Shown here in pieces: positions 12,515 through 41,746 of a stretch of DNA of 64,000 bases. The DNA lies in NCBI GenBank assembly GCA_000308255.3, contig HG326668.1:62001-126000 (forward strand). Direction: 5' to 3'. How positions within the stretch are numbered: the stretch's first letter is position 1; each line of letters opens with the position of its first letter. The notes beneath the pieces are model-generated. The model saw nothing but the letters and a program-made list of their open reading frames with translations, did not search any database and had not been told where the DNA came from. The translations under genes and the position numbers were made by a program. Origin of the DNA: Anaerococcus pacaensis 9403502. GTDB lineage: Bacteria > Bacillota > Clostridia > Tissierellales > Peptoniphilaceae.

Positions 12515-13312
12515 TTAATTTCTACTTAGGGATAAGCCTTCTTTATTATTTTTTACCATAAGTATTTCAGCCAATATTGATATAGCTATTTCTTCTACTG
12601 ATCCATTGTCTATATCTAATCCAACTGGAGTATGAATAGATGACAAATCTTCATCGCTATAACCTAATTCTCTCAGCTTTCCAAATACATCTTTTACCTT
12701 TGCTCTTGACCCTATCATGCCTAAATATTTATAATCCTTATCAATTACTTCTTTTAATACATCTAAATCTGTACTATGGCCCCTAGTACATAGGATGATA
12801 TAAGTGTTTTCTTTATCAAATGTTAATTTTTCTATCGCCTGACTAAGGTTATCGCTATAGTAATTATCTATCTCAGCAAAATCAGGGCTAGTCTTAAATT
12901 CACTTCTATCATCTATTATATCTACTGCAAAACCAGTCTTAACTGCTACTCTAGCTAGCTTTTGGCCAACATGACCCGCGCCAAATATATATAGCCTTTT
13001 ACGTGGCAAAAAGAGTTTTACATAGCCTCTACTATTGCCGCCACAGGACATTTGTAATTCTCCGGATTTTGATAAGTTGTAGTCAAATTCAAAGTCTTCG
13101 TTAGTTTTAAAGGCCTCCATAGTTCTACGCATAATGTCAGCCTCGATTTTACCACCGCCAACTGTACCTAGAGTTTCACCATCCTCTATTATGGCCATAG
13201 CTGAGCTATCCTCGCCTGGTGTAGAGCCCTTGTTTTCTATAATTAATGCTAGTGCTGCTTTTTTGCCAGCAGTATTTGCTTCGTGAATTTTTAATAAAAC
13301 ATCGGATTTCAT
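12515..13312 (-). CDS. xdhC: XdhC/CoxI-family maturation factor for molybdenum hydroxylases
   Basis: Cytoplasmic protein of 265 residues. The N-terminal XdhC/CoxI domain includes IIENKGSTPGEDSSAMAI and TLGTVGGGKIEADI, with Cys in MSCGGNSRGYV. A C-terminal Rossmann domain starts at LYIFGAGHVGQKLARVA. Proteins of this family bind and sulfurate the molybdenum cofactor and insert it into xanthine dehydrogenase-type enzymes. It overlaps yqeB by 4 bases and is the last gene of the operon that starts with the purine permease at 24821. Its partner is likely the Mo hydroxylase at 15370-17988. Confidence 0.88.
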   Translation of the reverse strand: MKSDVLLKIHEANTAGKKAALALIIENKGSTPGEDSSAMAIIEDGETLGTVGGGKIEADIMRRTMEAFKTNEDFEFDYNLSKSGELQMSCGGNSRGYVKLFLPRKRLYIFGAGHVGQKLARVAVKTGFAVDIIDDRSEFKTSPDFAEIDNYYSDNLSQAIEKLTFDKENTYIILCTRGHSTDLDVLKEVIDKDYKYLGMIGSRAKVKDVFGKLRELGYSDEDLSSIHTPVGLDIDNGSVEEIAISILAEILMVKNNKEGLSLSRN

Positions 13313-14112
13313 AGATTTCTTTCTTTCTTTAACATGAGTACTGCCTCAAGGACTCCCCCGCCCACACATCTAGTCTTATCTGATAGGGTGTGAACATTTT
13401 CTATCACTATACGAGGGTCTACATCTCCTACCTTTAGGCCACTAGTTACATGGACACCCTCGGTTATCATCCCACGAACTATACCCTTTAGTTGTGATTT
13501 TATTGGTATACCAGCTACGGTTGCCACCGTCTCTCCCTCTGCTACAATAGAGCCAATATCTCTAATGACATGTATTTGCCCATCGCTAGGTGATCTTAGG
13601 ATACGTTCAGTAGTGTAGCCATCGATATTGCCTGGGTTTCCTGTATTTTTTGCAGCTGGTCCTTCAAAAATTATCCTGCCTAGATTGTGGCCACGGTTGG
13701 TCTCTATTACCAAATCCACGTCATCTCCTGCCACAAAACCAGGACCAAGGCCAATTGTGATAGGGGCCATAGCCCTATTTGTCCCCAGATTTTTCTTAGC
13801 TAGAATTGCATCAACTACTGCTAGGGGTTTTAGTTTATTTATAAATTCGCAGTCAGGGTCAACTATCACAGCTATCTTATTTTTTCTAAAGGCAGCTGAG
13901 ATTTCTTTGCTAGTTTCACATCTGACTGCTATCATATCTTCGATTTTAACTTCATTATCATAGATGGCTTGGGCAATAGAAACTTGTCTTCTGATGCAAG
14001 TTGGTTTTTCAATTTCTAGAACCAATACATCAAAGCCTGCTCTATATAGCTTTTGGATGCTACCTGTAGCTATATCCCCTCCGCCTCTTACGATAATTAA
14101 ATTATCATTCAT
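13309..14112 (-). CDS. yqeB: YqeB, accessory protein of selenium-dependent molybdenum hydroxylases
   Basis: A 267-residue protein starting LIIVRGGGDIATGSIQKLY, the signature of the YqeB family (EF2563-type). It has Cys39 in EKPTCIRRQVSIAQAIYD and a later IDGYTTERILRSP. In genomes with a selenium-dependent molybdenum hydroxylase this gene almost always accompanies yqeC. It is thought to help make or insert the selenium-containing cofactor; the reaction is not established. It overlaps mocA by 8 bases and xdhC by 4, so the four accessory genes are translationally coupled. Confidence 0.88.
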   Translation of the reverse strand: MNDNLIIVRGGGDIATGSIQKLYRAGFDVLVLEIEKPTCIRRQVSIAQAIYDNEVKIEDMIAVRCETSKEISAAFRKNKIAVIVDPDCEFINKLKPLAVVDAILAKKNLGTNRAMAPITIGLGPGFVAGDDVDLVIETNRGHNLGRIIFEGPAAKNTGNPGNIDGYTTERILRSPSDGQIHVIRDIGSIVAEGETVATVAGIPIKSQLKGIVRGMITEGVHVTSGLKVGDVDPRIVIENVHTLSDKTRCVGGGVLEAVLMLKKERNL

Positions 14113-14677
14113 AATCTTCCTTTATTTTATTGTAGGCTTCTATGGTATCTATATCAATTAGCTCTTTTTCATCATCTATATCTACTCTGTTGTTTTCTTG
14201 ACCATAGGCTAAGATCATCCCACCTTGGTCAGCCTCTAGATTCATGAGGCCTTCTCTATATGATGCTGGGAAAATCACAGGAGCTCCTCTTCTATCGTTA
14301 ATTACAGGATAGGTTATGATTTGATTTTCATCAAAGGCTTCTATTAGTTTTCGGCAGGTTTCTAACGTTAGTAGTGGCTGGTCTGCAACAAAATACATAA
14401 GGGCATTGTCAGCCTTAGCTGCATCTGTTCCAAGTCGAATGGTTGTAGATTTGCCTACTTCCGGATTGTTATTAAATAAAGCTTTAAAACCATAGTCTTT
14501 AGCTACGTCTAATACATGGTCAAAGCTTGAAACTATAATAGTTTCATCCAAATCAAGATCTTTTAATAAATCCATAGTGTGCACGAAAAGTTCCTTACCT
14601 TTAAAATCTAAAAATAGTTTATTTTCGCCCATCCTCTTTGATTGTCCACTTGCCATAACTATTGCACTAATTTTCAT
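14105..14677 (-). CDS. mocA: MocA-type molybdenum cofactor nucleotidyltransferase
   Basis: A 190-residue nucleotidyltransferase of the MobA/MocA type. The N-terminal nucleotide-binding loop is AIVMASGQSKRMGENKL; a central metal-binding acidic site lies at MYFVADQPLL. It would join CMP to molybdopterin to give the cytosine dinucleotide cofactor used by xanthine dehydrogenase-family enzymes. In E. coli the corresponding gene ygfJ sits in the same kind of cluster. It overlaps yqeC by 11 bases and yqeB by 8. Confidence 0.85.
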   Translation of the reverse strand: MKISAIVMASGQSKRMGENKLFLDFKGKELFVHTMDLLKDLDLDETIIVSSFDHVLDVAKDYGFKALFNNNPEVGKSTTIRLGTDAAKADNALMYFVADQPLLTLETCRKLIEAFDENQIITYPVINDRRGAPVIFPASYREGLMNLEADQGGMILAYGQENNRVDIDDEKELIDIDTIEAYNKIKEDYE

Positions 14678-15365
14678 AATAATCCTTTCTTATTAACGAA
14701 CCATAGTAGAGAGGATAAGTAAATTCCTTGTTTGCAATGATTTCATTTATATTTTTAAAGTCATTATCTTCTTCTACTTGGTTAAAAAATACGATACATT
14801 CCTTATTAAAGTTTTTAAATAAGCCCATATCATAAGATATGAGCCTATTGAAAGTTTTATAATCAATAACATTTTTACCACAAAACTCGACAAACCCATC
14901 ATAATTATAGATGAATTCTTTATCAGGCACTTTGCCATAAGTTTTTATCGAGAGTATTCCAATGGTTTTATCTGTAAAATCACAAATCACTGGTTCGTGG
15001 TCTTTCCAGAATTTTACTGGCATATTTCTACAACCATCTGCTTCGATGATAGTGAAGTCGAAATCTTTTCTAATCTCATTTAGCTTTTCATAACCAATAA
15101 AGCCTAGCTTTTCTTTGCCAAGAACTTTTTCGCCGAGCACTACTATTTGACCAGGCTCTGGCTTTTGATAGTCATCTGATGATATATAGATTTTATCAAA
15201 TCCAGCATCTGGGATAGCAATCTTGGTTGAGGTTGTGACAAGCACTGACCCATAATTTTTAAGTTCATTGGCCAGGGTAAACATCAAAGTTGTCTTGCCC
15301 CCGGCCCCTGTTATTGATATTATATCTTTCTCTTTAATATTAAAAAGGTCTTTTAACTTTTGCAT
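14667..15365 (-). CDS. yqeC: YqeC, putative selenium cofactor biosynthesis protein
   Basis: A protein of about 232 residues with a P-loop near its N-terminus, ISITGAGGKTTLMF, and VTTSTKIAIP shortly after, matching the YqeC family. Together with YqeB it marks selenium-dependent molybdenum hydroxylase systems and is proposed to help form the selenated cofactor. The frame is open upstream to 15401, inside the preceding dehydrogenase gene. The ATG at 15365, 5 bases past that gene's stop, gives the usual family N-terminus (MQKLKDLFNI). Neither start has a good ribosome site, so translational coupling is likely. Confidence 0.82.
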   Translation of the reverse strand: MQKLKDLFNIKEKDIISITGAGGKTTLMFTLANELKNYGSVLVTTSTKIAIPDAGFDKIYISSDDYQKPEPGQIVVLGEKVLGKEKLGFIGYEKLNEIRKDFDFTIIEADGCRNMPVKFWKDHEPVICDFTDKTIGILSIKTYGKVPDKEFIYNYDGFVEFCGKNVIDYKTFNRLISYDMGLFKNFNKECIVFFNQVEEDNDFKNINEIIANKEFTYPLYYGSLIRKDYYEN

Positions 15366-15369
15366 ACCA

Positions 15370-17988
15370 TTATTTTTTATCTTTTGAATAGTAAGTGTCA
15401 ACCATTGGGAAGTCGCATCTTAGTTTGCCGTCTAGTTTATAATATGCCCCTTGGGCAGCTGAAGCTATTGGTATGGTTGAGATTTCACCTATACCCTTGG
15501 CACCAAAGGCCCTATCTAGAAGCTCGTTATCTTCTTTTTCTACGAAGATTGGGTGGATATGAGGTATGTCTGGAGCTTTGAATAAACCTAGATTTCCAAA
15601 TTTAGCCTTAACATTTGACCTATCAAGTTTGAAGTCTTCTGTTAGAGCATAGCCTAATCCCATGACTACCCCACCATCTACTTGCCCGCCTATAGACTTA
15701 GGATTGATTACCTTGCCAGAGTCATGAGCTGCATAAACATCAATTACTTTACCATCATCGTCTAGAACAACAACGTGAGTTGCATAAGAATATGCAACGT
15801 GGGATACTGGGTTTTCTTTGTCAGAATTTAGTGGGTCGGTTGGATCAAAGTATTCATAGAAATAGTCTTTGCCATTTAATTCCTCTAGGCTGCTTTGATC
15901 GAGGTCCGCTTTTAATAGTTCACAAGCTTTTTTAATTGCTTCACCAGAAAATAGGGTTTGGCGTGATCCAGAAGATGTACCAGAATCTGGTGAATTTTCT
16001 GTGTTTGGTCGGATGATTTCTACCTTATCCGGGCTTATTTCAAGCACATCTGCAGCCATTTGCTTAAAGACTGTTTTAGCACCTTGGCCAAGGTCACTTG
16101 CTGCACAATATACTAATACATTGCCATCATCTACGACCACTTTTGCCCTACCCTTATCAGGAAGGCCTACACCTACGCCAGTGTTTTTCATAGCGCAAGC
16201 TATACCCGCACGGTCTTGGTTTTCTTCATAGGCATCCTTTACTGCTAGCAGAGTTTCTACAAGTGCAGTTGATGAATCAGCTATCTGCCCATTTGGTAAT
16301 ACTTCACCTGGTCTAATTGCATTCTTGTAGCGAATCTCCCATGGTGAGATACCTACTTTCTCTGCAAGGAGGTTTATATTACTTTCTAAGGCAAAATTTG
16401 ATTGGCATACACCAAAGCCTCTAAAGGCACCAGATGGAGGGTTGTTGGTGTAGTAGCCATATCCGTCAATATGTGTATTTTCGTAGTGGTATGGGCCTAC
16501 TGAGTGAGTGCAGGCACGTTCTAATACTGGACCGCATAGAGAAGCATAAGCGCCTGTATCGAGATTTATAGTAGCCTGCATTGCAAGGAAATTACCTTCC
16601 TCATCACAACCCAATTTGAAAGTAGCTTTCATTGGGTGGCGTTTTGGGTGGAATTTGAGTGAGTCATCCCTGCTTAGTTTAACTTTTACCGGCACATCGA
16701 ACTTATATGCTGCAAGTGCTGCTAAGTGTTGTACAGATACGTCTTCTTTACCACCAAAGGCACCACCTATTAGTTTATTTTCTACTACGACTTTCTCAGG
16801 TGTATCTAACCAACCCATCATAATGAGGATTTCTTTTCTAGTATCATATACTGATTGGTCAGTTGAAAATACTTTTACCCCTTCTTTGTAAGGCATAGCT
16901 ATAGCTGCTTCTGGCTCTAAGAAGGCGTGTTCTGTAAAAGGAGTGGTATATGATTCCTCTACTATATGGGCACATTTTTCAAATGCAGCCTCAGCATCAC
17001 CCCTGTATACGTGGCGTTCTTGGCAGAGATTGCCATTTGAGTGGATGAAAGGAGAATTTGGGTCAGCGGCTTCTTCAATAGTTGATACTGTTTCTAGCTC
17101 TTCGTATTCTATTTCTACAAGCTTTTTAGCTTCATTTACTATATCTTCGCTTTCACCTACTACTAGGCAGATAGCATCTCCCTGGCATCTAGTGATATCC
17201 CCTTCAGCTATGAAGACATCCCAGTCTTGCATTATGTGGCCAACTTTGTTGTTTGGTACATCATCTGCAGTGAGGATTCCTATAACACCATCAAGCTCTA
17301 GGGCCTTTGATGTATCGATTTTTAAAATTTTTGCCCTAGGGAATTTGCTTCTTACAGCTGACCCGTGCATAAGGCCATCTATTTCCATATCATCCACATA
17401 TTCAGCTTCTCCTAGGACCTTATCTCTTGCATCTATTCTTACAAAGTCATCGCCAACAGCAATTTTTTCGTAAGCAAAGGAAAGCTCACTAGGATTTTCA
17501 CTTAATATTTCTCCAGCAAGTTTTATAGCATCTATGATTTTTACATAGCCTGTACAGCGGCAAACATTGTGACTAATGGCTGCCTTTATTTCATCATCTG
17601 TTGGATTCTTTGTTTTTCTAAGTAGGCCAATAGCTGAAACTGCCATGCCAGGTGTACAAAAACCGCACTGAACAGCCCCACACTCTTCAAAGGCATACAC
17701 AAGGGCCTCTCTTTCTCTATCAGAAAAGCCCTCTAGGGTAACGATTTCTTTATCTCTAAGTTTCTTAAGTCTTTGGGTACAAGCAGGTTTTGCCTCGCCA
17801 TCAATGAGGACGGTACAAGCTCCGCATGCCCCTTGAGAACAACCGTCTTTAGCAGAGTGGATTTTTAAATCTTCCCTTAAGAATTTCAGAAGGGTTTTAT
17901 CGGTGTAGGTTTCGTAAGTAGAGCCATTTATATTAACCACTAGGCATTCAGCTCCGTCTATCTTTTCGCCTATTAAAGTGTTTGTCAT
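15370..17988 (-). CDS. Selenium-dependent-type xanthine dehydrogenase (fused [2Fe-2S] and Mo domains)
   Basis: Cytoplasmic molybdenum hydroxylase of 872 residues. Residues 1-155 carry two [2Fe-2S] sites: Cys 50, 55, 58, 70 and Cys 108, 111, 143, 145. The two molybdopterin domains follow (from about 178), with GGAFGGKEDVSVQHLA, PSGAFRGFGVCQ and a C-terminal GAKGIGEISTIP carrying the catalytic Glu. No FAD domain is present, so electrons must leave through a partner; the FAD protein at 18680-19564 or YgfK are candidates. The fused layout next to yqeB, yqeC and mocA matches the selenium-dependent xanthine dehydrogenase family, which oxidises purines. Substrate is inferred from the cluster. Its ribosome site is GAGAGG, 5 bases before ATG. 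A copy of the island's 12-bp motif lies upstream at 18033-18044. Confidence 0.88.
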   Translation of the reverse strand: MTNTLIGEKIDGAECLVVNINGSTYETYTDKTLLKFLREDLKIHSAKDGCSQGACGACTVLIDGEAKPACTQRLKKLRDKEIVTLEGFSDREREALVYAFEECGAVQCGFCTPGMAVSAIGLLRKTKNPTDDEIKAAISHNVCRCTGYVKIIDAIKLAGEILSENPSELSFAYEKIAVGDDFVRIDARDKVLGEAEYVDDMEIDGLMHGSAVRSKFPRAKILKIDTSKALELDGVIGILTADDVPNNKVGHIMQDWDVFIAEGDITRCQGDAICLVVGESEDIVNEAKKLVEIEYEELETVSTIEEAADPNSPFIHSNGNLCQERHVYRGDAEAAFEKCAHIVEESYTTPFTEHAFLEPEAAIAMPYKEGVKVFSTDQSVYDTRKEILIMMGWLDTPEKVVVENKLIGGAFGGKEDVSVQHLAALAAYKFDVPVKVKLSRDDSLKFHPKRHPMKATFKLGCDEEGNFLAMQATINLDTGAYASLCGPVLERACTHSVGPYHYENTHIDGYGYYTNNPPSGAFRGFGVCQSNFALESNINLLAEKVGISPWEIRYKNAIRPGEVLPNGQIADSSTALVETLLAVKDAYEENQDRAGIACAMKNTGVGVGLPDKGRAKVVVDDGNVLVYCAASDLGQGAKTVFKQMAADVLEISPDKVEIIRPNTENSPDSGTSSGSRQTLFSGEAIKKACELLKADLDQSSLEELNGKDYFYEYFDPTDPLNSDKENPVSHVAYSYATHVVVLDDDGKVIDVYAAHDSGKVINPKSIGGQVDGGVVMGLGYALTEDFKLDRSNVKAKFGNLGLFKAPDIPHIHPIFVEKEDNELLDRAFGAKGIGEISTIPIASAAQGAYYKLDGKLRCDFPMVDTYYSKDKK

Positions 17989-18032
17989 AAGAACCTCTCT
18001 TATTTTACTAATTTAAATCACTAATATGATAT

Positions 18033-18078: not shown

Positions 18079-18687
18079 CTAGTCTTTTATCATTGGATCG
18101 TGGTAATCGTTATCTGGGTCAACTGGTTGTTCAGTCTCAATTTCTCCCCTAGCAGTAATTTCCATTTCGATAGCATCTTCAACTGCTCTAAGGATATTTT
18201 CGTAACCAGTACACCTGCACATATTTCCTGCAAGTAGTACTTTTAGTTCATCCCTATTGTAGCGGGTAGCTCTTTGGACAATTTCTGTAGCTGTGATAAT
18301 AAAGCCTGGTGTACAAAAACCACATTGAACTGCTGCGTGGTCGATAAATGCTTGTTGTATGAGAGACAGCGACCCATCGCTAGCTTGAAGTCCTTCTGTA
18401 GTCCAAATATCTTTTCCATCAGCCCAGATAGCTAGATATAGGCAAGAGTCAACGCTGTTGCCATCTATAAGTACAGAACAAGCTCCACATTCTCCAACTT
18501 CGCATCCTTTTTTAACAGATGTAAGACCAAAATCATTACGAAGGAAGTCGGTGAGAGATGCTCTCTTATCTACCATTTTTTCGACCTTGATGCCATTGAT
18601 AGTGCATGAGACCCTCTTAAACTCAGGCTTTTGGTAAGCTAGATTTAGGTCCTTGTCAGCAAATGGCCCATACTCTCTACTATGCAT
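18079..18687 (-). CDS. Xanthine dehydrogenase [2Fe-2S] subunit
   Basis: A 202-residue iron-sulfur protein. A plant-type [2Fe-2S] site is seen in GCEVGECGACSVLIDG, and the second, CO-dehydrogenase-type site in AAVQCGFCTPGFI with AGNMCRCTGYENI. Such subunits pass electrons from the Mo centre to FAD. It overlaps the FAD-subunit gene by 8 bases and together with the Mo subunit at 21092-23386 should form the classical three-subunit enzyme. The first 27 and the last 30 residues are extra to the family core; the C-terminal tail is acidic. Confidence 0.92.
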   Translation of the reverse strand: MHSREYGPFADKDLNLAYQKPEFKRVSCTINGIKVEKMVDKRASLTDFLRNDFGLTSVKKGCEVGECGACSVLIDGNSVDSCLYLAIWADGKDIWTTEGLQASDGSLSLIQQAFIDHAAVQCGFCTPGFIITATEIVQRATRYNRDELKVLLAGNMCRCTGYENILRAVEDAIEMEITARGEIETEQPVDPDNDYHDPMIKD

Positions 18688-19564
18688 TGACTAATCCTTT
18701 CTTCTTTTCTAGACAATCTAGTAGGCTGCGAACACAAATTTCATATAAAACTTGAGTTCTTACTTCCTTGGAAGCCCTCCATGAATCCCTAGGTGATAGT
18801 TCTTCTAGGGCTTTTTTGGCAAAAGCCTTGGCAGTATCTTCGTCTAGTTTTTTGCCAGTAAATTCTTCTTCTGCCTTGTAGACTCTAATAGGTGTAGTTG
18901 ATGCTACCCCGTAGCATGCCTTGATACTTTCCATATGAAAATCATCATCTAATTTGACATTTACACCACAAGAGCTTAAGGCTATGTCCATGGCATTTCT
19001 CATAGCGTATTTGTAATAATGGCCCACATAGCCTTCGTAATTTTCTTTTGAAATATAAAAGGCTGTTACCATTTCATTTGGTATCATATCAACTTGGCCG
19101 AGTCCTACATAAAATTCTGTGATAGGAACTTGGCGGTAGCCTTCAGTTGAAGCTACTTCTACAGTAGCATCAAGAGTAAATAGGGCTGGAGCACTATCAG
19201 CTGAAGGAGCAGCGTTACAAACATTGCCGCCTACTGTAGCTGCATTTCTAAGCTGTGGACCTCCTGGTGTTAGACAAGCTTCTGCTAAATATGGGATTCT
19301 TTCAATAATGATATCATTATGGGCTATGTCAGAAAAGGTAGCCAGAGCACCAATTTTTATGGTTTCATCTTCTAATAGCTCAATGGTTTTTAGTTCATCA
19401 ATCATATGGATTGATAAAAGTTCACCATCTGCCATTTTCCCATCCCTGATTTTTACTAGAACATCTGTGCCGCCTGCGATGATACGAAGGTCCGGATTTT
19501 CATTTAAGAGCTTTAAAGCCTCATCGACTGTGAAAGCTTCTTTTATATCTTTTATATCAAACAT
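18680..19564 (-). CDS. Xanthine dehydrogenase FAD-binding subunit
   Basis: A 294-residue flavoprotein of the CO-dehydrogenase medium-subunit type. The FAD loops are visible: IIAGGTDVLVKIRDG near residue 30 and TVGGNVCNAAPSADSAPAL near 110. It takes electrons from the [2Fe-2S] subunit encoded just downstream, and would hand them to NAD or another acceptor. The gene is separated from the upstream permease by 107 bases that contain a hairpin without U tract (19643-19660). It may serve both Mo subunits in the island. Confidence 0.92.
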   Translation of the reverse strand: MFDIKDIKEAFTVDEALKLLNENPDLRIIAGGTDVLVKIRDGKMADGELLSIHMIDELKTIELLEDETIKIGALATFSDIAHNDIIIERIPYLAEACLTPGGPQLRNAATVGGNVCNAAPSADSAPALFTLDATVEVASTEGYRQVPITEFYVGLGQVDMIPNEMVTAFYISKENYEGYVGHYYKYAMRNAMDIALSSCGVNVKLDDDFHMESIKACYGVASTTPIRVYKAEEEFTGKKLDEDTAKAFAKKALEELSPRDSWRASKEVRTQVLYEICVRSLLDCLEKKKGLVNA

Positions 19565-28849: not shown

Positions 28850-28881
28850 ATTAGTCTCCTTTCTCAATTTTAAAGTTAAAA

Positions 28882-33862: not shown

Positions 33863-35101
33863 TTATCTTTGAATTGTATATTTGTAATCGCCTTCATTAG
33901 TGTAATACCCATCCCAAACTACTTGTCTATAGTGAGCGAAGTCTGTATCGCCTTCTGTTGAGATTAGTAGGATTACTGAATTTTCATCTAGTTTTAATTT
34001 TTCTTTGATATCAGCTAAGTCTTCTCTTTGAAGGACTTCTGATACTACACCCATAGTAGCAGCACCAGATTCACCTGATATCACGCGTTTGTCATCTTTT
34101 AGAGGGTTACCTAAGATTCTCATACCTCTAGCTGCAGCTGTATCTGGTACAGACATGAATGCATCCGCATAAGAATTTAGTACTGGCCAACCTACTGTTA
34201 CTGGTTCACCACAAGCTAGTCCTGCCATGATTGTATCAAGAGATCCTGTTACATTGTGGATTTCTCCATCATTAGCCTTAGCTGTGATGTAGTTACAATT
34301 TGCTGCTTCTGGTTCTACTACTGTGATAAATGGTTTTTCATCTCCTTCGTATACTGATGAGAAATAACCAGTTACACCTGTTGCAAATGATCCAACACCT
34401 GCTTGAACGAAGATGTGGCTTGGTTTAAGTCCTGCTTCTTTTAATTGTTCGTTTGCTTCTTTAGCAAGAGTAGCGTAGCCTTGGATAATCCATGTAGGAA
34501 TTTCTTCATAACCTTCCCATGCAGTATCTTGAACCATTACCCAGCCCTTTTCTTCTGCATATTGGTTAGCAAGTCTTACACAATCATCGTAGTTTAGGCC
34601 ATCCATGATATCACACTCAGCACCTAAAGCTCTGATATTATCGCGTCTTTCTAGGGCAGAGCCATCAGGCATGATAACTACACATCCTTGTTTAAGTTGG
34701 TTAGCAGTCCATGCTACACCCCTACCGTGGTTACCGTCTGTTGCTGTTACGAATGTTATTTCGCCAAGCTGCTCTCTTATCTCATCAGATATCATTTTTT
34801 CAAATGGTAATTCTTCGATGCTAAGACCGAGCTTTTGAGCTATGTATTTACCTATAGCAAATGATCCGCCAAGTACCTTAAAGGCATTGAGGCCAAATCT
34901 ATATGACTCATCTTTTACAAATATGTCTTTCACGCCGAATTGTTCAGCTAAGTTTGATAGTCTAACTAATGGAGTCACCTCATAGTCAGGGAAACTTTCG
35001 TGAAAGCTTGCTGCTGTGTTAACGGTTTTTTCATCGATAAAATCGAGTGAAGCTTTGCTACCGACATTTTCATTAATTACAATGTTATATGTTTTTTCCA
35101 C
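33863..35101 (-). CDS. dpaL: Diaminopropionate ammonia-lyase (YgeX)
   Basis: PLP enzyme of 412 residues. The cofactor Lys is Lys75 in SYRFGLNAFKVLGGSFAIG. ATDGNHGRGVAW and GVGSFATGVTGYF form the phosphate-binding loop, and GLACGEPVTVGW is typical of the family. It splits 2,3-diaminopropionate into pyruvate and two ammonia molecules, the final step of the pathway encoded downstream. It is the first gene of the first island transcript. The promoter at 35178-35206 matches consensus fully. The start is the ATG at 35101. Confidence 0.93.
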   Translation of the reverse strand: MEKTYNIVINENVGSKASLDFIDEKTVNTAASFHESFPDYEVTPLVRLSNLAEQFGVKDIFVKDESYRFGLNAFKVLGGSFAIGKYIAQKLGLSIEELPFEKMISDEIREQLGEITFVTATDGNHGRGVAWTANQLKQGCVVIMPDGSALERRDNIRALGAECDIMDGLNYDDCVRLANQYAEEKGWVMVQDTAWEGYEEIPTWIIQGYATLAKEANEQLKEAGLKPSHIFVQAGVGSFATGVTGYFSSVYEGDEKPFITVVEPEAANCNYITAKANDGEIHNVTGSLDTIMAGLACGEPVTVGWPVLNSYADAFMSVPDTAAARGMRILGNPLKDDKRVISGESGAATMGVVSEVLQREDLADIKEKLKLDENSVILLISTEGDTDFAHYRQVVWDGYYTNEGDYKYTIQR

Positions 35102-35177: not shown

Positions 35178-35206
35178 ATTATAATTTGAAAGACAACGTT
35201 TGTCAA
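35178..35206 (-). promoter_or_regulatory. Consensus sigma-A promoter of the dpaL operon
   Basis: On the minus strand TTGACA (35206-35201), a 17-base spacer and TATAAT (35183-35178) match the housekeeping consensus at all twelve positions. The start point would fall near 35171, inside the putative operator. A perfect promoter with an overlapping operator indicates strong, repressible expression. Confidence 0.88.
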
Positions 35207-35246
35207 TAAGATTATTATGGTTATTGTGCTCATATTATCATTTAAA

Positions 35247-35258
35247 ATGTGATATAAT
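35247..35258 (+). promoter_or_regulatory. Promoter -10 and operator copy of the GntR gene
   Basis: ATGTGATATAAT contains a TATAAT -10 box (35253-35258) merged with the ATGTGATATA motif of the island. An upstream TATCA at 35236-35240 makes an inverted pair with TGATA. Binding of the regulator here would block its own transcription. No good -35 box was seen at the right distance. Confidence 0.5.
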
Positions 35259-35292
35259 ATATATGACGCTTATACAAGAAATGTGGTGTAAA

Positions 35293-35946
35293 ATGACTGA
35301 TAATAATTTTCAAATAAAAAGAACTTTTATAAAGGACGAGGCCTACCATATTTTAGAAAAAGAGATAATTAGTGGTAAGCTTAAGCCAAATACAAGGATA
35401 AATATAAATGAAATTAGCGAAAGACTAGGCATATCTAGAACTCCTGTTAGAGAAGCTATCTTAAGGCTTGAAAACGAAGGTCTTGTAATATCTAAGCCCA
35501 ACCAATGGACCATTGTTGCACCAATCGACCTATCCGATGTCGTCGATATCTATCCATTAATCTCCGTGCTAGAAGCCTACGCCCTAAGAGATGGATTTAA
35601 AAATGTTGATCAAGTATTTATTGATACTCTTACTGAAATCAATGAAGATATCAAAATATCTTTTGATAATCACGAATTGGTCCATCTGATAAGTCTAGAT
35701 AATGAATTCCATCGCATGATAATTAACCTATCTAGTAACAATGCAATTTTACCAATTATAACTGACCTTAAGAAAAGGCTAATTAGAATAGAAATGTATT
35801 ATTTTGAAAACTTAGAAAATAGGTTTTCCTCCTACGATGAACACAAGGAAATCATCAAATTCTTAAGAGAAGACAATCTGGATAAGGCCGAAGAAGCCTT
35901 AAAGGCAAATTGGATTAACACACTAAATTCAATAGATATTGAATGA
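35293..35946 (+). CDS. GntR/FadR-family transcription regulator of the purine island
   Basis: DNA-binding regulator of 217 residues. The winged helix-turn-helix is at about 12-75: DEAYHILEKEIISGKLKPN, NEISERLGISRTPVREAILRL and NEGLVISKPN. The C-terminal helical FCD ligand domain has Asp/His metal or ligand positions in LDNEFHRMI and YDEHKEIIKFL. The open frame extends to 35200, but the -10 box lies at 35253-35258, so the ATG at 35293 is the sensible start; its ribosome site is weak (GTGG). The gene is divergent from dpaL and shares 191 bases of control DNA with it. It likely senses a purine or pathway intermediate; the ligand is unknown. Confidence 0.85.
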   Translation: MTDNNFQIKRTFIKDEAYHILEKEIISGKLKPNTRININEISERLGISRTPVREAILRLENEGLVISKPNQWTIVAPIDLSDVVDIYPLISVLEAYALRDGFKNVDQVFIDTLTEINEDIKISFDNHELVHLISLDNEFHRMIINLSSNNAILPIITDLKKRLIRIEMYYFENLENRFSSYDEHKEIIKFLREDNLDKAEEALKANWINTLNSIDIE

Positions 35947-35947
35947 A

Positions 35948-35989
35948 AAAGGCTGGATAGCCAATAGTTTACTATTGCTTCCAGCCTTT
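35948..35989. terminator. Bidirectional terminator between the GntR gene and mog
   Basis: A 10-bp outer stem AAAGGCTGGA/TCCAGCCTTT plus an inner CAATAG/CTATTG stem lies between two convergent genes. It touches the mog stop codon on one side and follows the GntR stop by 2 bases on the other. Runs of A and T flank both sides. Confidence 0.82.
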
Positions 35990-36467
35990 AGTGTTTGTCG
36001 CGCCCGTTTATTGTATCTAGTCCGTGCTTTAAAAATGGGCTAATTATTTCAAAATTTTCCTTACAAGCCTTTGGAGATCCAGGGAAATTTATAATAAGAG
36101 ATTTTCCCCTAATACCCGCTGTGGCTCTAGATAGATAAGCCATAGGGGTAATCTTTGCACTTTCTACTCGCATAGCCTCTGATATACCTGGAACTCTCCT
36201 ATCAATGATAGCCTCAGTTGCTTCTGGAGTTATATCTCTAGGAGAAAATCCTGTGCCGCCAGTGGTTATAACAAGCGAAATTTTTTTATCAGCAAAACCT
36301 ACTAACTCTCGTTTTATTTTATCATAGTCATCTGCAATAATTTTGTAATCAATGACTTCCAATCCATATTCACTTAGCAAATCTTTTAATACAGGACCTG
36401 ACTTATCTTCATACAGCCCCTCACTTGCTCTATCGGATATGGTAAGTATTGCCGCAGTATAGCTCAT
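35988..36467 (-). CDS. mog: Molybdopterin adenylyltransferase, MogA/MoaB family
   Basis: A 159-residue MoCF-fold protein. It starts AAILTISDRASEGLYEDKSG, with the cofactor-binding ITTGGTGFSPRDITPEAT and the substrate loop INFPGSPKACKENFE. It activates molybdopterin by adenylation before metal insertion. It overlaps the MoeA-like gene by 4 bases and is the last gene of the mod/moa transcript on the minus strand. Confidence 0.92.
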   Translation of the reverse strand: MSYTAAILTISDRASEGLYEDKSGPVLKDLLSEYGLEVIDYKIIADDYDKIKRELVGFADKKISLVITTGGTGFSPRDITPEATEAIIDRRVPGISEAMRVESAKITPMAYLSRATAGIRGKSLIINFPGSPKACKENFEIISPFLKHGLDTINGRDKH

Positions 36468-37441
36468 AATAGGCCACCTTCTGCCATTTCTAAAAAATCT
36501 TCTTTTTTTAAATCAATGTCTGCTACTATCCTAGGTAGGAAATAGTCAAAGCTTGTAATAGGTGCATGGATAGTTGCTCCTGGGACTCCCATGAGATATC
36601 TCCTCTTATCCTTTGCAATTGTTAGCATATTGCCCGGCTGCATGGGAATACCTTGGATAATAAGCTCTGCGCCGGTTTTTTTAATTGCTGTTGGGGTTAG
36701 GTCATCAGGATCAACGCTCATTCCACCAGTAAATATTACTAAGTCTGCACCTCTTTCTTTAAATCGGCCATAAGCTTCTAATAGCATATCCAAATCATCT
36801 CTACAAATTATATAGTCTATGACATCTGCATCAAATTCAGCTAGTTTCTCACTTAAGACTGGTTTAAACCTATCTTCTATCCTTCCGTAATAAACTTCAT
36901 CCCCAGTTATGATGACTCCTACTTTGAGTTTTTTGTATGGTAAGACTTCAAAAAGCTTATCATTTTCTGATAATATTTCTTTGGCCTTATCTACTTTACT
37001 TCTATCAGTCCAAAGAGGTACTATCCTGATTCCAGCAAGATTATCCCCCACTTTAACCTTAGTATAAGATCTTTTAGTTACTACAGTATAGTCGCCTATT
37101 TCATTGAGAGATTTTAAAAGTGGTCTGTTTAGCACGAAAACTCCATCTATACTTGACTTCATAGAGATCTTACCCTCAGCAGGGCCAGTGATATTTATAT
37201 AGTCATTTTCTAGATAAGGAATGAGTTCTAATATCGCATCTTCCTCGTGGACTTCATTTGCTTCAAGCTCTCCTACATAGATATGGTCTTTACCAATATT
37301 TTTTAAATCTTCTATGTCATCTGCCTCCACGATATGGCCGCGTTTAAATCTCACTCCCTTAAAACCATCTGGCATAATGGCTGTAATATCGTGTAGGAGG
37401 GGCTGGCCTATGGCATCCTCCACTTTAATTTTCTCAATCAT
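36464..37441 (-). CDS. MoeA-like molybdopterin-binding protein, short form
   Basis: A 325-residue protein with a C-terminal MoCF domain: VGVIITGDEVYYGRI, IFTGGMSVDPDDLTPTAI and LMGVPGATIHAP. The N-terminal part is shorter than in true MoeA (about 400 residues) and does not show the usual MoeA domain I-II motifs; it begins IKVEDAIGQPLLHDI. Related proteins are found beside molybdenum hydroxylases and may insert molybdate or a modified metal centre into the cofactor. It overlaps mog by 4 and the MOSC gene by 8 bases. Function is inferred from fold and place. Confidence 0.82.
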   Translation of the reverse strand: MIEKIKVEDAIGQPLLHDITAIMPDGFKGVRFKRGHIVEADDIEDLKNIGKDHIYVGELEANEVHEEDAILELIPYLENDYINITGPAEGKISMKSSIDGVFVLNRPLLKSLNEIGDYTVVTKRSYTKVKVGDNLAGIRIVPLWTDRSKVDKAKEILSENDKLFEVLPYKKLKVGVIITGDEVYYGRIEDRFKPVLSEKLAEFDADVIDYIICRDDLDMLLEAYGRFKERGADLVIFTGGMSVDPDDLTPTAIKKTGAELIIQGIPMQPGNMLTIAKDKRRYLMGVPGATIHAPITSFDYFLPRIVADIDLKKEDFLEMAEGGLL

Positions 37442-37886
37442 TTGCTATCACCCTTATTGGATCTCCAGGGAAAATTTCTCCCTCTTTTTTTACAATAGCA
37501 AATATCCCCTCAGTAGGCATGATACATTCACCAGTTATAGTTCTAATTTCACAGCCCTTGTGACATTCTTTGCCAATTTGGGTGACCTCTAGTTCCGTTT
37601 CACCCACAGTAATAAGAGTTCCTACTGGAAGGGTGTGAAGGCTTATCCCTTCAGTCATGATATTCTCAGCAAAATCTCCTGGTTTTAGGCTAGGGATTTT
37701 TTCTTTCATTTTATTTAATGACTCTATGGCAAGTAGGCTTATCTGCCTATGCCAATTACCAGCATGGGCATCGCCTACTATGCCGTGGTCGATTTTAACA
37801 TCTATTTTATCAACAGGGGTTTTGATTGTACCTTTTTTTGTACTAATATTTACAGATACCACTTTAGGATCTTTCGTATGTTCCAC
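37434..37886 (-). CDS. MOSC-domain protein
   Basis: A 150-residue single-domain MOSC protein. Conserved parts are [32 protein letters not shown] and [10 protein letters not shown], whose Cys pair holds the conserved MOSC cysteine. MOSC domains bind sulfurated molybdenum cofactor and carry sulfur to the Mo centre. This matches the need of xanthine dehydrogenase-type enzymes for a sulfido (or selenido) ligand. It overlaps moaC by 23 bases and the MoeA-like gene by 8, so it is tightly coupled to cofactor synthesis. Confidence 0.9.
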
Positions 37887-38340
37887 TTTTTCCTCCTGTC
37901 TTTTTTTCTAATTTGATGTCAGTAATCTCTATATCTTTTTGAACTGCCTTGGCCATATCATATATGGTAAGGGCTGTAACTGTGACAGCAGTTAGTGCCT
38001 CCATCTCGACTCCAGTCTTTGCATTAATCTTCACTTGGCCAAGGATTTTAATAGTATAATCTTCATCATTTAATTCAAAATCAATATTTATTCCAGTAAT
38101 ATTTATAGGATGACACATAGGTATGAGATTTGAAGTATTTTTAGCTGCCATAATGCCTGCTACCTTTGCTACTGTGAGCACATCACCCTTTTTTATACCA
38201 TTGGTTTTGATTAGATTGTAGGTGTTTTCATTTAAGATGACCTTGGCACTTGCAATTGCTAGTCTATCGCTAGTTTCCTTTTCGGATACGTCGACCATTT
38301 TTGCATTGCCATTCTCATCAATGTGACTTAGTTTGTCCAT
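37864..38340 (-). CDS. moaC: Cyclic pyranopterin monophosphate synthase MoaC
   Basis: A 158-residue enzyme completing the first step of molybdenum cofactor synthesis from the MoaA product. Family motifs are [27 protein letters not shown] (with the catalytic His region) and [20 protein letters not shown], ending KKTGGKSG. It lies 2 bases after moaA. MPT synthase genes (moaD/moaE) are not in the window. Confidence 0.95.
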
Positions 38341-38342
38341 AG

Positions 38343-39275
38343 TTAGCCTCCTATCTTGTTCATATTTCTAAGGCTATGAGATTTCTCTTCGTTTAAATTA
38401 TGAGCTCTTGGCTTATTAAATATAGCACTTGTTATTACTTCATCTTTTTCTTCATAACTTAGGCCCTTTAGATTAATCTCATCTTTGCTGTGTAGGCATG
38501 GTTTTAATTTACCATCTGCAGTTAGCCTCATCCTATTACAGGTGCTACAAAACTTGCATGACATAGGGGAAATGAGGCCGATTTTTCCCTTATGGCCTGG
38601 AATTTGATATAGCCTTGCCACCCCATCTGAAGATACTTCTTCCAGTCTATAATCTTTTATTAAACTTTCGGTTGATACAAAGGACTTCTGATCCCAATCC
38701 GCAGCTATACCGATTGGCATAAGTTCTATAAATCTAACCTCGATGTCATTATCTTTAGTAAGATTAATAAAATCTTCTATCTCGCTATCATTAAATCCAC
38801 CGATTACTACAACATTTATTTTCACTATAAAGCCCATCTCAATTGCCTTGTTTATAGCATTTATAGTAGAATCTATTTCTCCCCTTCGAGTAATCTCAGT
38901 AAATTTATCCCTATTCATAGTATCTAGGCTAAAATTAATACGTTTAAGTCCCGCCTTTTTTAGGGTGTCAATTTTTGGCAGCAAAAGAGAGCCATTGGTT
39001 GTAATCCCTATATCATCAATTCCCTCTATGGCGTTTATCCTTGCTATTAATTTTTCAATATCAGGGCGAACTAAAGGCTCACCACCTGTTATTCTAACCT
39101 TATTTATCCCCTTAGCTGCAAATATTTCTGTAATCTCTACTATTTCATCAAAGGATAAGATATCATTTAGGAAGTTATCCTCATCTTCTGTCATACAGTA
39201 CTTGCACCTAAAGTTACACTTATCTGTCACAGAAATTCTCAAATAAGTAATTTCTCTGCCAAATTGATCCTTCAT
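38343..39275 (-). CDS. moaA: GTP 3',8-cyclase MoaA
   Basis: Radical SAM enzyme of 310 residues. The SAM cluster Cys are 20, 24 and 27 in CNFRCKYCM. The second cluster uses Cys 243, 246 and 260 near the C-terminus. The SAM-binding GGEP is at 64-67, and the C-terminal Gly-Gly tail (309-310) needed for activity is present. It converts GTP to the cyclic intermediate used by MoaC. The gene follows modC by 11 bases in the same transcript. Confidence 0.96.
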
Positions 39276-39286
39276 TAAATCACCAT

Positions 39287-40312
39287 CTATCTATCAAAAA
39301 ATATCAGCTTGTCCTCGCTAATATTAAAATATATTCTATCTTTATCTAAGGTATTCCACTTATTTTTGTCAATGTTTATTCTAATATCATTATACAATAT
39401 AGAATCGCCTTTGACTATTATAATAAATTTATCAATGTCTTCAATGATACCATAGTCTTCTATCAAATACGAATTGTCATATCTTTGTTCATCCCTTATT
39501 ACTATATCATCAGCACTTATGCCTACATACGCTGGTGATATATCACATGTAATATTTAAATCTATTCCCCAGTCTAAGGCTTTTAAACAATTATTTGTAC
39601 ATTCGACTTTAGAAAAATTCTCTATGCCTATAAGTTTTGCACTTGCAAGGGATTCAGGTTTGCTAAAATATTCATCCTTGCTTACTTTCCCACTTGATTT
39701 TCCCTTATCGATAGTCACTATACTATCTGAGAACCTATAGGCTTCATTTTTATTATGGGTTACTATTATAGCTTCTGAGATGTATTTATCAATGACTTCT
39801 TTGACTTCTTTTTCAATTTTTATCTTAAGATATGTGTCAAGGGCTGCGAAGGGCTCATCTAAGAGTAAGATTTCCGGCTGATTTACAAGTATTCTAGCTA
39901 TCGCCACTCTCTGCCTTTCCCCACCAGAAATCACACTTGGGTACTTATTTTTGATATGAGAAATGTGCATCTCTTCTAAAATTCTATCAATCATTTCAAT
40001 AGAATTATCCCTAAGGCCAACTTTAACGTTCTCATAAACAGTGAAGTTGGGGAAAAGAGCGTAGTCTTGGAAAAGATAACCTACCCTACGATCTTTTACT
40101 GGGAGATTAATATTATTATCCGAATCGAAGAGCACCCTATCATTTAAAATAATTTTTCCTGAATCTGGGGTGATGATGCCAGCTATTGATTTAAGGGTTA
40201 GGGTCTTGCCCATGCCGGACTGGCCTAGTAGGCCAAGGGTTTCGTGGTCGACCTTAAAGTCTACATCTAGGTTAAAGCCCTTAAATTCCTTTTTTATTTG
40301 GCAAATTAACAT
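39287..40312 (-). CDS. modC: Molybdate ABC transporter ATPase ModC
   Basis: ATPase of 341 residues. Walker A is GQSGMGKT, the signature VISGGERQRVAIAR, Walker B ILLLDEPFAALD and the switch IVTHNKNEAYR. The part after about residue 225 is a C-terminal domain with weak similarity to the molybdate-binding TOBE domain of ModC. The gene overlaps modB by 32 bases. It energises molybdate uptake for the cofactor made by the downstream genes. Confidence 0.92.
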   Translation of the reverse strand: MLICQIKKEFKGFNLDVDFKVDHETLGLLGQSGMGKTLTLKSIAGIITPDSGKIILNDRVLFDSDNNINLPVKDRRVGYLFQDYALFPNFTVYENVKVGLRDNSIEMIDRILEEMHISHIKNKYPSVISGGERQRVAIARILVNQPEILLLDEPFAALDTYLKIKIEKEVKEVIDKYISEAIIVTHNKNEAYRFSDSIVTIDKGKSSGKVSKDEYFSKPESLASAKLIGIENFSKVECTNNCLKALDWGIDLNITCDISPAYVGISADDIVIRDEQRYDNSYLIEDYGIIEDIDKFIIIVKGDSILYNDIRINIDKNKWNTLDKDRIYFNISEDKLIFFDR

Positions 40313-40967
40313 AAGCCCCCTCCCTGTGTTCGATTATATTTATGGCAAGTAAGACCACAAAGGATATTAACACATTAATCACCACCCATTTATAGGCCAA
40401 AGCATCCTCACCTATGCGCCACATCTGGTAGACTGTAGTAGAAATGGTGGCAGTTTTGCCTGGAGTATAGCCTGCTACCATGGATGTAGCTCCGTATTCA
40501 CCGAGAGCTCTTGCAAAACTTAATATAACCCCAGCTAGGATCTCTTTTTTACAAACTGGCATGATGATTCTCCAAAATATCCACGAATCACTTTTTCCAA
40601 GTGTTTGTGCGGCGTATTTTAGGTTATAATCAAACGCTTCAAAAGCCCCTCTGGCAGTCCTATACATCAGCGGAAATGTAACTATAACTGTTGCAAAAAT
40701 TGACGAATACCATTTCATAATAAGCGATATATTGTGGCTGGCTAAAAATTGCCCGAGGGCACTATTGACCCCCAGAGACTTTAATACAAAGAAACCAACA
40801 ACCGTTGGCGGGAGCACTAGTGGCAGAGTTAATAGCACATCTAAGACTCCCTTGGTTATTGGTTTCATTTTTTTTATTTCATAGGCTAAAAATATACCGA
40901 TAAAGAAAGTGATAACAGTTGATATCAGTGCAATCCTTATCGAATTAAAAAGTGGGAACAAATCCAT
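40281..40967 (-). CDS. modB: Molybdate ABC transporter permease ModB
   Basis: Inner-membrane permease of 228 residues with five to six helices. It has the family segments LTLPLVLPPTVVGFFVL and the EAA loop KYAAQTLGKSDSWIFWRIIMP, then SFARALGEYGATSMVAGY. Its start codon overlaps the modA stop by one base, and its end overlaps modC by 32 bases. Confidence 0.94.
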   Translation of the reverse strand: MDLFPLFNSIRIALISTVITFFIGIFLAYEIKKMKPITKGVLDVLLTLPLVLPPTVVGFFVLKSLGVNSALGQFLASHNISLIMKWYSSIFATVIVTFPLMYRTARGAFEAFDYNLKYAAQTLGKSDSWIFWRIIMPVCKKEILAGVILSFARALGEYGATSMVAGYTPGKTATISTTVYQMWRIGEDALAYKWVVINVLISFVVLLAINIIEHREGAYVNLPNKKGI

Positions 40968-41746
40968 TATTTAACTACCTTAAAACCATATTTTTCAAAT
41001 ACCTTGCTAGCTTCATCTGTTTTTAAATAGTCGTAGAAAGCTTTTACCTCGTCCTTATTTTCACTATCTTTTACAATTCCCATTGGATATAAAATTCTGT
41101 TCTCAAACATAGATGGATCAGCCCTATCAACTACCTTAAGGCCAGCAGTATTTGCGTCTGTAGCATAGATAATACCACACTCAACTGCACCCTCATTGAT
41201 CCAAGACGAGACTTCTTTTACGTTTGAAGCAAAGGTAGCCTTAGCCTTAATTTCATCCCAAACACCCATTTTAGTAAGAAGTTCTTCTGAATATTGGCCA
41301 ACAGGTACATCAGCATTACCGAGGGCAATTGTAGATACCTTTTCAGTATTTAAGTCATCAAAGCTATTTATATCAAGAGTGCTATCTTTACGAGTAGCAA
41401 GAACCACTTCATTTTCTAATAAGTCTACATGGTTACTAACATCGATCTTATCTCCCAATTCGTCCATTTGCTTTTTAGCTGCTGAAATGAATATATCAGA
41501 AGGAGCACCCTCTTCGATTTGGGTTTTTAGTGTCCCTGATGAATCAAAATTGAAAGTTAATTTGGCATTTTTATACTGGTCAGCTATTTCATTTAATGCT
41601 TCTGTCATAGAGGCTGCTGCGAAAATTATCACTTCTTTTTCATAGGTACTTTGATCTGTATTACTTGGAGCATTGTTATCCACCCCACAGGATGAAATTG
41701 ATAAAGCCATTAGGCCTAGGATAATTACTAGTAATGGTTTTCTCAT
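40967..41746 (-). CDS. modA: Molybdate-binding lipoprotein ModA
   Basis: Lipoprotein of 259 residues. The signal ends SISSC with lipidated Cys20. The binding domain starts IIFAAASMTEALNEIA and includes FNFDSSGTLKTQIEEGAPSD and VPVGQYSEELL, which contribute the oxyanion ligands. The ATG at 41746 has a GGAGG site 5-6 bases upstream, so the longer open frame is not used. A TATAAT box lies upstream at 41780-41775. It starts the modABC-moaA-moaC-MOSC-moeA-like-mog transcript. Confidence 0.93.
   Translation of the reverse strand: MRKPLLVIILGLMALSISSCGVDNNAPSNTDQSTYEKEVIIFAAASMTEALNEIADQYKNAKLTFNFDSSGTLKTQIEEGAPSDIFISAAKKQMDELGDKIDVSNHVDLLENEVVLATRKDSTLDINSFDDLNTEKVSTIALGNADVPVGQYSEELLTKMGVWDEIKAKATFASNVKEVSSWINEGAVECGIIYATDANTAGLKVVDRADPSMFENRILYPMGIVKDSENKDEVKAFYDYLKTDEASKVFEKYGFKVVK

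Follow-up and report, generated by a model that had tools for sequence, protein, structure and literature searches.

A three-cysteine MOSC protein as candidate substitute for molybdopterin synthase: a purine/urate island of Anaerococcus pacaensis and its relatives among anaerobes

How does an anaerobe complete the molybdenum (Mo) cofactor of its purine-degrading hydroxylases when no molybdopterin (MPT) synthase can be found? The question is raised by a gene island at positions 12515 to 41746 of a 64,000-nucleotide stretch of Anaerococcus pacaensis 9403502 (contig HG326668.1, positions 62,001 to 126,000), which we analysed as a whole and call the window. The host draft genome is 2.37 Mb long and 97% complete, and the island lies on its contig 6. 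A preliminary annotation without database searches (the sequence-only reading) had described a molybdenum-dependent purine/urate fermentation island with its own cofactor and metal supply. Profile matches (NCBIfam and Pfam, a few of them below curated cut-offs) placed every gene that it had named where it had put it. A reductive urate/purine fermentation operon would be coupled to an operon for molybdate uptake and Mo cofactor (Moco) synthesis. Our results suggest that a small MOSC protein encoded within the latter probably inserts the dithiolene sulfurs in place of MoaD/MoaE, a catalytic role that we infer from the genomic evidence below and to which we assign a probability of roughly 64%.

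The sequence-only reading had remarked that MPT synthase (MoaD/MoaE) is missing from the island. This is the case, but the gap is not local. We found no match to MoaE (PF02391) and no match to MoaD/ThiS (PF02597) at E <= 0.001 in the entire genome, and MoaE was absent from all 100 genomes sampled from the family, 83 of them of high quality. MoaC was present in 42 of these genomes (43 matches), several of which consist of a single contig (e.g., G083, G037, and G050), so the gap is not an assembly effect. The same MoaE search was positive in 11 of 14 control genomes. Lack of MPT synthase is a trait of the whole lineage. With neither MoaE nor MoaD/ThiS, something else must convert cyclic pyranopterin monophosphate (cPMP) to MPT, provided that the Mo hydroxylases work.

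We then used an alignment of the MOSC proteins of 24 of 28 family loci (A1) as a profile on 199 genomes sampled across the phylum, counting MOSC as strong at E<1e-36 and MoaE as classical at E<1e-20. MoaC was detected in 141 genomes, MOSC in 131 (124 strong and 7 weak matches), and MoaE in 22 (11 classical and 11 at 29-40 bits). MOSC and classical MoaE were distributed in a nearly complementary manner: strong MOSC occurred in 124 of the 141 MoaC-positive genomes, in none of the 58 MoaC-negative ones, and in none of the 11 with classical MoaE, all of which carry MoaC (Fisher p 3e-35 for MOSC against MoaC and 2e-12 for MOSC against classical MoaE, uncorrected for kinship). Counted by family, 62 families had MOSC and 6 had MoaE, with none shared. 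A MoaE-type match of any strength was absent from 117 of the 124 strong-MOSC genomes. ThiS/MoaD matches were found in all 11 classical MoaE genomes and were absent from 15 of the 124 MOSC genomes, our own included, which suggests that the MOSC route needs no ubiquitin-like carrier. Moreover, 48 of the 124 lack enzymes of the xanthine oxidase (XO) family. We therefore rejected the idea that MOSC serves XO-family enzymes; it is not merely their sulfurase.

Eight genomes of the same sample carry XO-family enzymes with no MoaC match (G108, G128, G134, G152, G170, G171, G251, and G257), two of which (G108 and G257) belong to one genus and are 97-98% complete. They may have Mo enzymes while making no cofactor, or their pathway may have decayed.

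We counted MOSC and MoaE in a second phylum as well, using 148 genomes around Dethiosulfatarculus sandiegensis (G305), which we take to be a member of Desulfobacterota. Strong MOSC was present in 83 genomes and MoaE at E<1e-30 in 14, with an overlap of 0. In this phylum the exclusion is clean for the best-scoring MoaE, not below. From public data, 80 loci were fetched and 34 genomes were searched for MoaE. No match was found in 29 of the 34, including A. tetradius, C. difficile CD160, Clostridium drakei, Caloramator quimbayensis, Carboxydothermus islandicus, and Dethiosulfatarculus, and weak matches were found in three (a Desulfobulbaceae metagenome-assembled genome (MAG), a Soehngenia MAG, and Oscillibacter valericigenes). 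By MOSC protein, the closest named relative among the loci fetched was Anaerococcus tetradius, with 78% identity. The named lineages carrying this MOSC protein are strict anaerobes. MOSC appears to have taken over sulfur insertion in much of one large group of anaerobes.

The neighbourhood of the gene points to the same step. At 28 of the 30 family MoaC loci that we read, MOSC was beside or fused to MoaC or MoaA; at L027 the contig ends just after MOSC begins (as judged by eye), and the genome of L007 and L255 has its MOSC gene some 6 kb away from moaC, flanked by moaA and mog. Across the phylum, MOSC was in view at 24 of 30 MoaC loci, elsewhere in the genome for G131, G140, G167, G209, and G219, and nowhere in G141. 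These counts rule out that the adjacency of MOSC and moaC is a quirk of the window. Fusions were found on either side. Among 169 loci, MoaC-MOSC fusions occurred in 12 (11 genomes, L116 and L029 being the same contig), MOSC was followed in frame by Mog in 16 (15 genomes, including two MAGs labelled Chloroflexota), and the reverse order, Mog first, was seen in 2, while no MoaE-type open reading frame (ORF) was present in any. MPT synthase takes its substrate from MoaC and supplies Mog, and the MOSC fusions thus link both sides of the missing step.

A further scan covered 109 MOSC loci with flanks of 1.5 or up to 8 kb. In 94 of them we found moaA, moaC, mog, or a moeA-like gene, and several of the other 15 are short contigs. 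Seven of these 15 had a sulfur gene (nifS, nifU, or cysK) no more than 3 kb away in the same orientation: nifS-nifU-MOSC in L114 and, as judged from its resemblance to L114, in L105; a cysE-like gene (below its cut-off) and cysK with MOSC in L111 and L160; and cysK near MOSC in L139, L145, and L175, by similarity only in the last. Some Mo gene sets are small. The genes read are modABC-moaA-moaC-MOSC in L200 and L202 and moaA with a MoaC-MOSC fusion in L201, their flanking genes not being identified.

The protein is a MOSC family member by profile, with PF03473 above its cut-off, and by fold. Its AlphaFold model has a mean predicted local distance difference test score of 86, with a weaker cysteine loop (73 for residues 101-110 and 71 for 111-120), and its best Foldseek match is 1oru (E 4.4e-9). 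YuaD, YiiM, and mARC share the MOSC fold (Z 16.9, 14.8, and 13.8; root-mean-square deviation 2.5, 2.5, and 2.6 over 142, 132, and 135 residues), whereas the profile similarity is weak (E 0.0014 for YiiM and 1.6 for YuaD). Compared with these proteins, ours has two more invariant cysteines, in the motifs CH..C and C.MP. The profile alignment puts C108 (window numbering) on a YiiM cysteine, presumably the Mo ligand in the YiiM family, and leaves C112 and C121 as extra. C108, C112, C121, H41, R47, and K106 were invariant in all 167 MOSC domains compared and W45, H46, and H109 were conserved in at least 98%. The set comprised domains at E 1e-30 or better, of which 80 were collected by a scan with two patterns that both include a cysteine and 87 were not.

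Three conserved cysteines are shared with the non-redox sulfur transferases that carry a [4Fe-4S] cluster (TtuA, NcsA, and TudS); NcsA holds its cluster by three cysteines, leaving an open iron (PMC10067955; this and the other papers given by PMC number are cited for those parts of their text that were available). Our protein differs from these in its MOSC fold and in having MOSC as its sole Pfam match. The three invariant cysteines, the strictly anaerobic hosts, and the nifS-nifU neighbours together suggest a three-cysteine [4Fe-4S] site that carries sulfide, as in NcsA and TtuA. These features would be just as compatible with zinc binding or with a relay of persulfides.

In the pathway that we propose, the MOSC protein would receive cPMP from MoaA/MoaC, add the two dithiolene sulfurs, and hand MPT to Mog and the MoeA-like protein, with MoaD/MoaE playing no part. 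The step would be the one of the classical synthase, cPMP to MPT, in contrast to which the MOSC model has other MOSC proteins as its best fold matches. More speculatively, the three cysteines would coordinate a [4Fe-4S] cluster with the sulfide bound at its open iron. A fully specified version remains tentative, and we consider it doubtful in its entirety: an oxygen-sensitive, iron-sulfur-dependent MPT synthase unrelated to MoaD/MoaE, which would use no ubiquitin-like carrier, draw its sulfur from a cysteine desulfurase or sulfide, and make the dithiolene of Mo cofactors and of tungsten cofactors alike. Its hosts would be most clostridia-like anaerobes and many sulfate reducers, with acetogens and gut urate fermenters among them.

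Several observations weigh against a sulfur-inserting MOSC protein. MOSC proteins of known function, such as YiiM and mARC, are molybdoenzymes, and MOSC is counted as such in PMC6147048. The profiling covered candidate families, and an unlinked gene of equal distribution may exist besides. The cut-offs were chosen at gaps after the score lists had been seen and differ between the phyla, and the statistics lack the correction for kinship. In the first phylum, one MoaC-negative genome, G202, shows a truncated MOSC match where a contig begins (E 1.5e-18). Six MoaC-positive genomes have neither strong MOSC nor classical MoaE. Two of these are limited by the data (G118 is 78% complete and the contig of G181 ends just after moaC) and G231 and G296 have a diverged MOSC (104 and 92 bits) with a short MoaE-like protein; the contrary cases are G141 and G155, where the short MoaE-like protein stands without MOSC. 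In the second phylum, MOSC also occurred in 3 of 18 MoaE genomes at E<1e-20 (G338, G355, and G366), in 4 of 9 in the band from 1e-30 to 1e-18, and in 21 of the 48 weaker MoaE matches, taken by score only. Strong MoaE and MOSC were found together in two of the 34 public genomes, both MAGs (Geobacter and a deltaproteobacterium). Finally, the genes listed for G. sulfurreducens in PMC2700814 include moaE as well as mosC but neither moaD nor moeB.

An alternative that we consider unlikely is that an unlinked enzyme makes MPT and that MOSC acts as a Moco carrier or in the sulfuration of finished Moco. The restriction of our profiling to candidate families leaves room for such an enzyme, MOSC domains elsewhere belong to molybdoenzymes (PMC6147048), and some genomes do hold MOSC and MoaE together. 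However, a carrier or sulfurase should not exclude MoaE, and the overlap was 0 of 11 in the first phylum and 0 of 14 in the second, rising to 3 of 18 at the looser cut-off; the small Mo gene sets of L200, L201, and L202 and the MOSC genomes that have no XO-family enzymes argue against it as well. It is distinctly improbable that the protein is itself a small molybdoenzyme, an N-hydroxylate reductase of the YiiM/mARC type that travels with the cofactor genes. Its best fold matches in the PDB are YuaD, YiiM, and mARC, in line with the classification of MOSC proteins in PMC6147048, but a user enzyme is not expected in 124 of the 130 MoaC-positive genomes without classical MoaE and in 0 of the 11 with it. 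The weak YiiM profile match and the two further invariant cysteines point away from it too.

The short MoaE-like protein mentioned above (L207-L217, mostly 130-145 amino acids) could in principle perform the MPT step, with the MOSC link being coincidental. It accounts for the weak matches in 11 of 199 genomes, matches of this kind number 48 of 148 by score only in the second phylum, and since G141 and G155 offer no other candidate, we retained it among the rivals. We nevertheless find it very improbable and rejected the 11 matches as MPT synthase: the proteins read are paralogues that stop short of the PIWKKE block found in classical MoaE; the 5 kb around each of the 11 loci, some of whose contigs end sooner, showed no ORF for MoaA, MoaC, Mog, or a MoeA-like protein; and most MOSC genomes and all 100 family genomes lack any MoaE-type match. 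It is scarcely credible that these lineages make no Moco at all and that the genes are relics or serve import. The eight XO-positive, MoaC-negative genomes do indicate that Mo hydroxylase genes occur without synthesis, but the gene sets are intact, overlapping, and kept across genera. Moreover, C. difficile CD160 has MOSC and no MoaE, and in other strains of this species, full growth on xanthine and urate reportedly depends on selD and yqeB (PMC11448449).

The missing enzyme has been remarked on for Geobacter in 2009, where it was left open, and in 2016 for acetogens, with cysteine desulfurase as the guess, and for Dehalobacter, with MOSC as the guess. The nitrate reductase of G. metallireducens, working without moaE, was called unexplained in PMC2700814, which lists two mosC genes with locus numbers next to those of moaA copies. 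In the available text of PMC5039349, none of 14 acetogens is reported to have MoaE. For Dehalobacter, Tang et al. (2016) did not find moaD/moaE and suggested in one sentence that MOSC proteins in the Moco cluster possibly do the job (PMC4751268). That suggestion concerned one genus, whereas our results cover two phyla and add the near-exclusion of classical MoaE, the fusions, the sulfur genes, and the three-cysteine signature. Other work assigns MOSC differently: PMC1779556 puts these proteins at terminal cofactor steps, and PMC6147048, treating them as a molybdoenzyme family, accepts a pathway when the majority of its key genes is found and each step, with MoeB counted in, is represented by one gene or more. 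Our search of the open-licence PubMed Central literature yielded no systematic study or test of MOSC in connection with MoaE absence or MoaC fusion.

What is at stake is most of the sample, since 124 of 141 genomes that start the cofactor pathway carry MOSC and lack the classical sulfur-insertion enzyme. If MOSC is indeed the substitute, this would fill a hole in the cofactor pathway on which acetogen formate dehydrogenases and gut urate use depend, and any survey counting MOSC proteins solely as molybdoenzymes would need correction.

The features of the island are collected in Table 1. Curated NCBIfam cut-offs were exceeded for YqeB, YqeC, TIGR03311, the XdhA/B/C subunits, both NCS2 permeases, SsnA, YgfK, carbamate kinase, HyuA, YgeY, YgeW, diaminopropionate ammonia-lyase, MoaC, MoaA, ModB, and ModA, and were missed by the XdhC-type maturation factor, the MocA-type cytidylyltransferase, and ModC. 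The genes form two minus-strand units, one from modA to mog (41746-35988: modA, modB, modC, moaA, moaC, MOSC, MoeA-like, mog; gaps of -32 to 11 bases) and one from dpaL to the XdhC-type maturation gene (35101-12515; gaps of -32 to 115 bases). The MOSC gene and moaC overlap by 23 bases. The island end at 41746 is correct for ModA because a start there yields a lipoprotein signal peptide. A perfect promoter match faces dpaL, in a scan that as a whole was at chance level (32 counted, 29 expected).

Table 1. Features of the island, in window coordinates (bits are profile scores; ATPase, adenosine triphosphatase; FAD, flavin adenine dinucleotide; Fe-S, iron-sulfur; Se, selenium).
Feature	Coordinates	Strand	Evidence
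XdhC-type Mo hydroxylase maturation factor	12515..13312	-	NF045664 231.6 bits, TIGR02964 121.4 bits, both below cut-off
yqeB, maturation marker of Se-dependent Mo hydroxylases	13309..14112	-	TIGR03309 361.9 bits (cut-off 220)
mocA-like Mo cofactor cytidylyltransferase	14105..14677	-	TIGR03310 146.9 bits, below cut-off 186.45
yqeC	14667..15401	-	TIGR03172 171.2 bits (cut-off 73); PF19842
Se-dependent xanthine dehydrogenase-type Mo hydroxylase, Fe-S and Mo parts in one chain	15370..17988	-	TIGR03311 1192.5 bits; no FAD-subunit model among its 22 profile matches
Mo hydroxylase Fe-S subunit	18079..18687	-	NF043084 242.9 bits
Mo hydroxylase FAD subunit	18680..19564	-	NF043083 395.1 bits
NCS2 purine permease 1	19672..21045	-	TIGR00801 292.9 bits
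Mo hydroxylase Mo subunit (XdhA)	21092..23386	-	NF043082 1162.9 bits
NCS2 purine permease 2	23442..24821	-	TIGR00801 300 bits
ssnA	24937..26256	-	TIGR03314 535.1 bits
ygfK	26267..28867	-	TIGR03315 1018.8 bits
Carbamate kinase	28932..29864	-	TIGR00746 383.8 bits
hyuA (D-hydantoinase)	29880..31241	-	TIGR02033 475.6 bits
ygeY	31308..32642	-	TIGR03526 618 bits
ygeW	32652..33848	-	TIGR03316 775.6 bits
dpaL/ygeX	33863..35101	-	TIGR03528 610.9 bits
Perfect sigma-70-like promoter TTGACA-17-TATAAT, facing dpaL	35178..35206	-	Consensus match only
GntR-type regulator, divergent, between both units	35200..35946	+	Models below cut-off; same place in G083, G054, G037, G035, G090
mog	35988..36467	-	TIGR00177 133.4 bits (passes 85.35); PRK09417 Mog equivalog 153.7 bits (fails 158)
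MoeA-like molybdopterin-binding protein, 325 amino acids	36464..37441	-	PF00994 89.1 bits, sole model passed
Three-cysteine MOSC protein (C108/C112/C121), proposed substitute MPT synthase	37434..37886	-	PF03473 46.8 bits (cut-off 22.7)
moaC	37864..38340	-	TIGR00581 199.9 bits
moaA	38343..39275	-	TIGR02666 365.6 bits
modC-like ATPase	39287..40312	-	TIGR02142 181.5 bits, below cut-off; placed between modB and moaA
modB	40281..40967	-	TIGR02141 200.6 bits
modA	40967..41746	-	TIGR01256 172 bits

The comparison of gene order in related genomes, proposed earlier as a check, indicated that the island is not a product of chance: it is kept fully or nearly so in four relatives and partly in a fifth. 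The order modABC-moaA-moaC-MOSC-moeA-mog-[GntR]-dpaL-ygeW-ygeY-...-ygfK-ssnA-...-xdh recurs in G083, G054, G037, G035, and G090, so that cofactor genes and molybdate import are joined to the catabolic set in these five relatives just as in the window. The end formed by the Se-dependent hydroxylase, yqeC, mocA, yqeB, and xdhC is also present in G083 and G054 and, with mocA not resolved, in G035; in G037 it is seen as far as mocA, where the view stops. G090 keeps the genes from modA to XdhABC, which are followed by other genes, this end not adjoining. Among the six genomes compared, carbamate kinase lies inside the island only in our own and in G090, and no hyuA was seen between ygeY and ygfK in G083, G037, and G035. 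No such catabolic set stands beside the Mo genes in the stretches read of G075, G020, G031, and G050. The island is a conserved module, with exceptions.

The catabolic half is of an already known kind. As the sequence-only reading had proposed, it is purine/urate catabolism of the reductive E. coli type, with YgfK, YgeW, and carbamate kinase present and not UacX/UacY, and ssnA, ygfK, hyuA, ygeW, ygeY, and ygeX all occur together. PMC12507026 names Peptoniphilus asaccharolyticus and Anaerococcus prevotii as carriers of variants of this urate cluster, which bears out the match claimed earlier. The island shares ygfK, ssnA, hyuA, ygeW, ygeY, dpaL/ygeX, carbamate kinase, and a Mo hydroxylase with the E. 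coli ygeW-ssnA region and these variants and differs in the attached mod-moa-MOSC-moe-mog operon; what is new is one more member with Mo genes attached. Either of the two Mo hydroxylases, the TIGR03311 chain or XdhABC, is a candidate for an XdhD-type role (urate to yanthine). The proposal that YgeW feeds carbamoyl phosphate into the formation of adenosine triphosphate (ATP) agrees with E. coli, where YgeW releases carbamoyl phosphate that can support ATP formation (PMC12507026); by homology the same may hold here. The order of ureido cleavage is disputed (PMC12990295). Our genome has three MoCoBD_2 matches against two Mo subunits in the island, and the third may represent another molybdoenzyme or a split match.

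The island had also been called nearly self-contained. For molybdenum this is truer than was thought, because the MOSC gene, the likely substitute for MPT synthase, lies inside it; for selenium it is less so. Both markers of Se-dependent Mo hydroxylases, yqeB (TIGR03309) and yqeC (TIGR03172), are present, and the proposed search for selD was positive (G000:C1:53675-54577, 342.7 bits). The selenium supply therefore exists, yet outside the island, in a set on contig 1 (L187, 7570-10583) comprising selD (342.5 bits), YedF (215.9 bits), the Pfam Se_S_carrier (53.5 bits), and an EF2568-type desulfurase (356.6 bits, below the cut-off of 377). In G083, G054, and G035, selD (by coordinates) and three genes with the lengths and order of yedF, the Se/S carrier, and the desulfurase directly follow the XdhC gene. 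The system described by Haft and Self (2008) likewise has yqeB, yqeC, and mocA/ygfJ beside Mo hydroxylases with selD, yedF, and the EF2568-type desulfurase in the genome; here the selenium genes are on another contig, and mocA and the desulfurase score below curated cut-offs. PMC2276186 defines these markers and cites the identification of molybdopterin cytosine dinucleotide in the Eubacterium barkeri enzyme. Many selD genes of the family have an in-frame TGA, possibly for selenocysteine, unlike the one of our genome.

At Rfam gathering scores, the window contains only a thiamine pyrophosphate (TPP) riboswitch (45794-45890), located ahead of a Thiamine_BP gene and an ATP-binding cassette (ABC) transporter (42889-45751). 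Together with the lack of a ThiS match in the genome, this fits thiamine import rather than synthesis. Directly downstream of the low-coordinate end of the island, an operon for phosphate transport (pst) that also encodes a PhoU-like protein and a two-component system was recognized at 5784-12386, of which the PstS-type protein was checked by profile and the rest by eye. Finally, a peptide ABC transporter permease at 640-2625 has RCC1-like repeats (WG motifs, by eye) that were apparently inserted after its first membrane segment.

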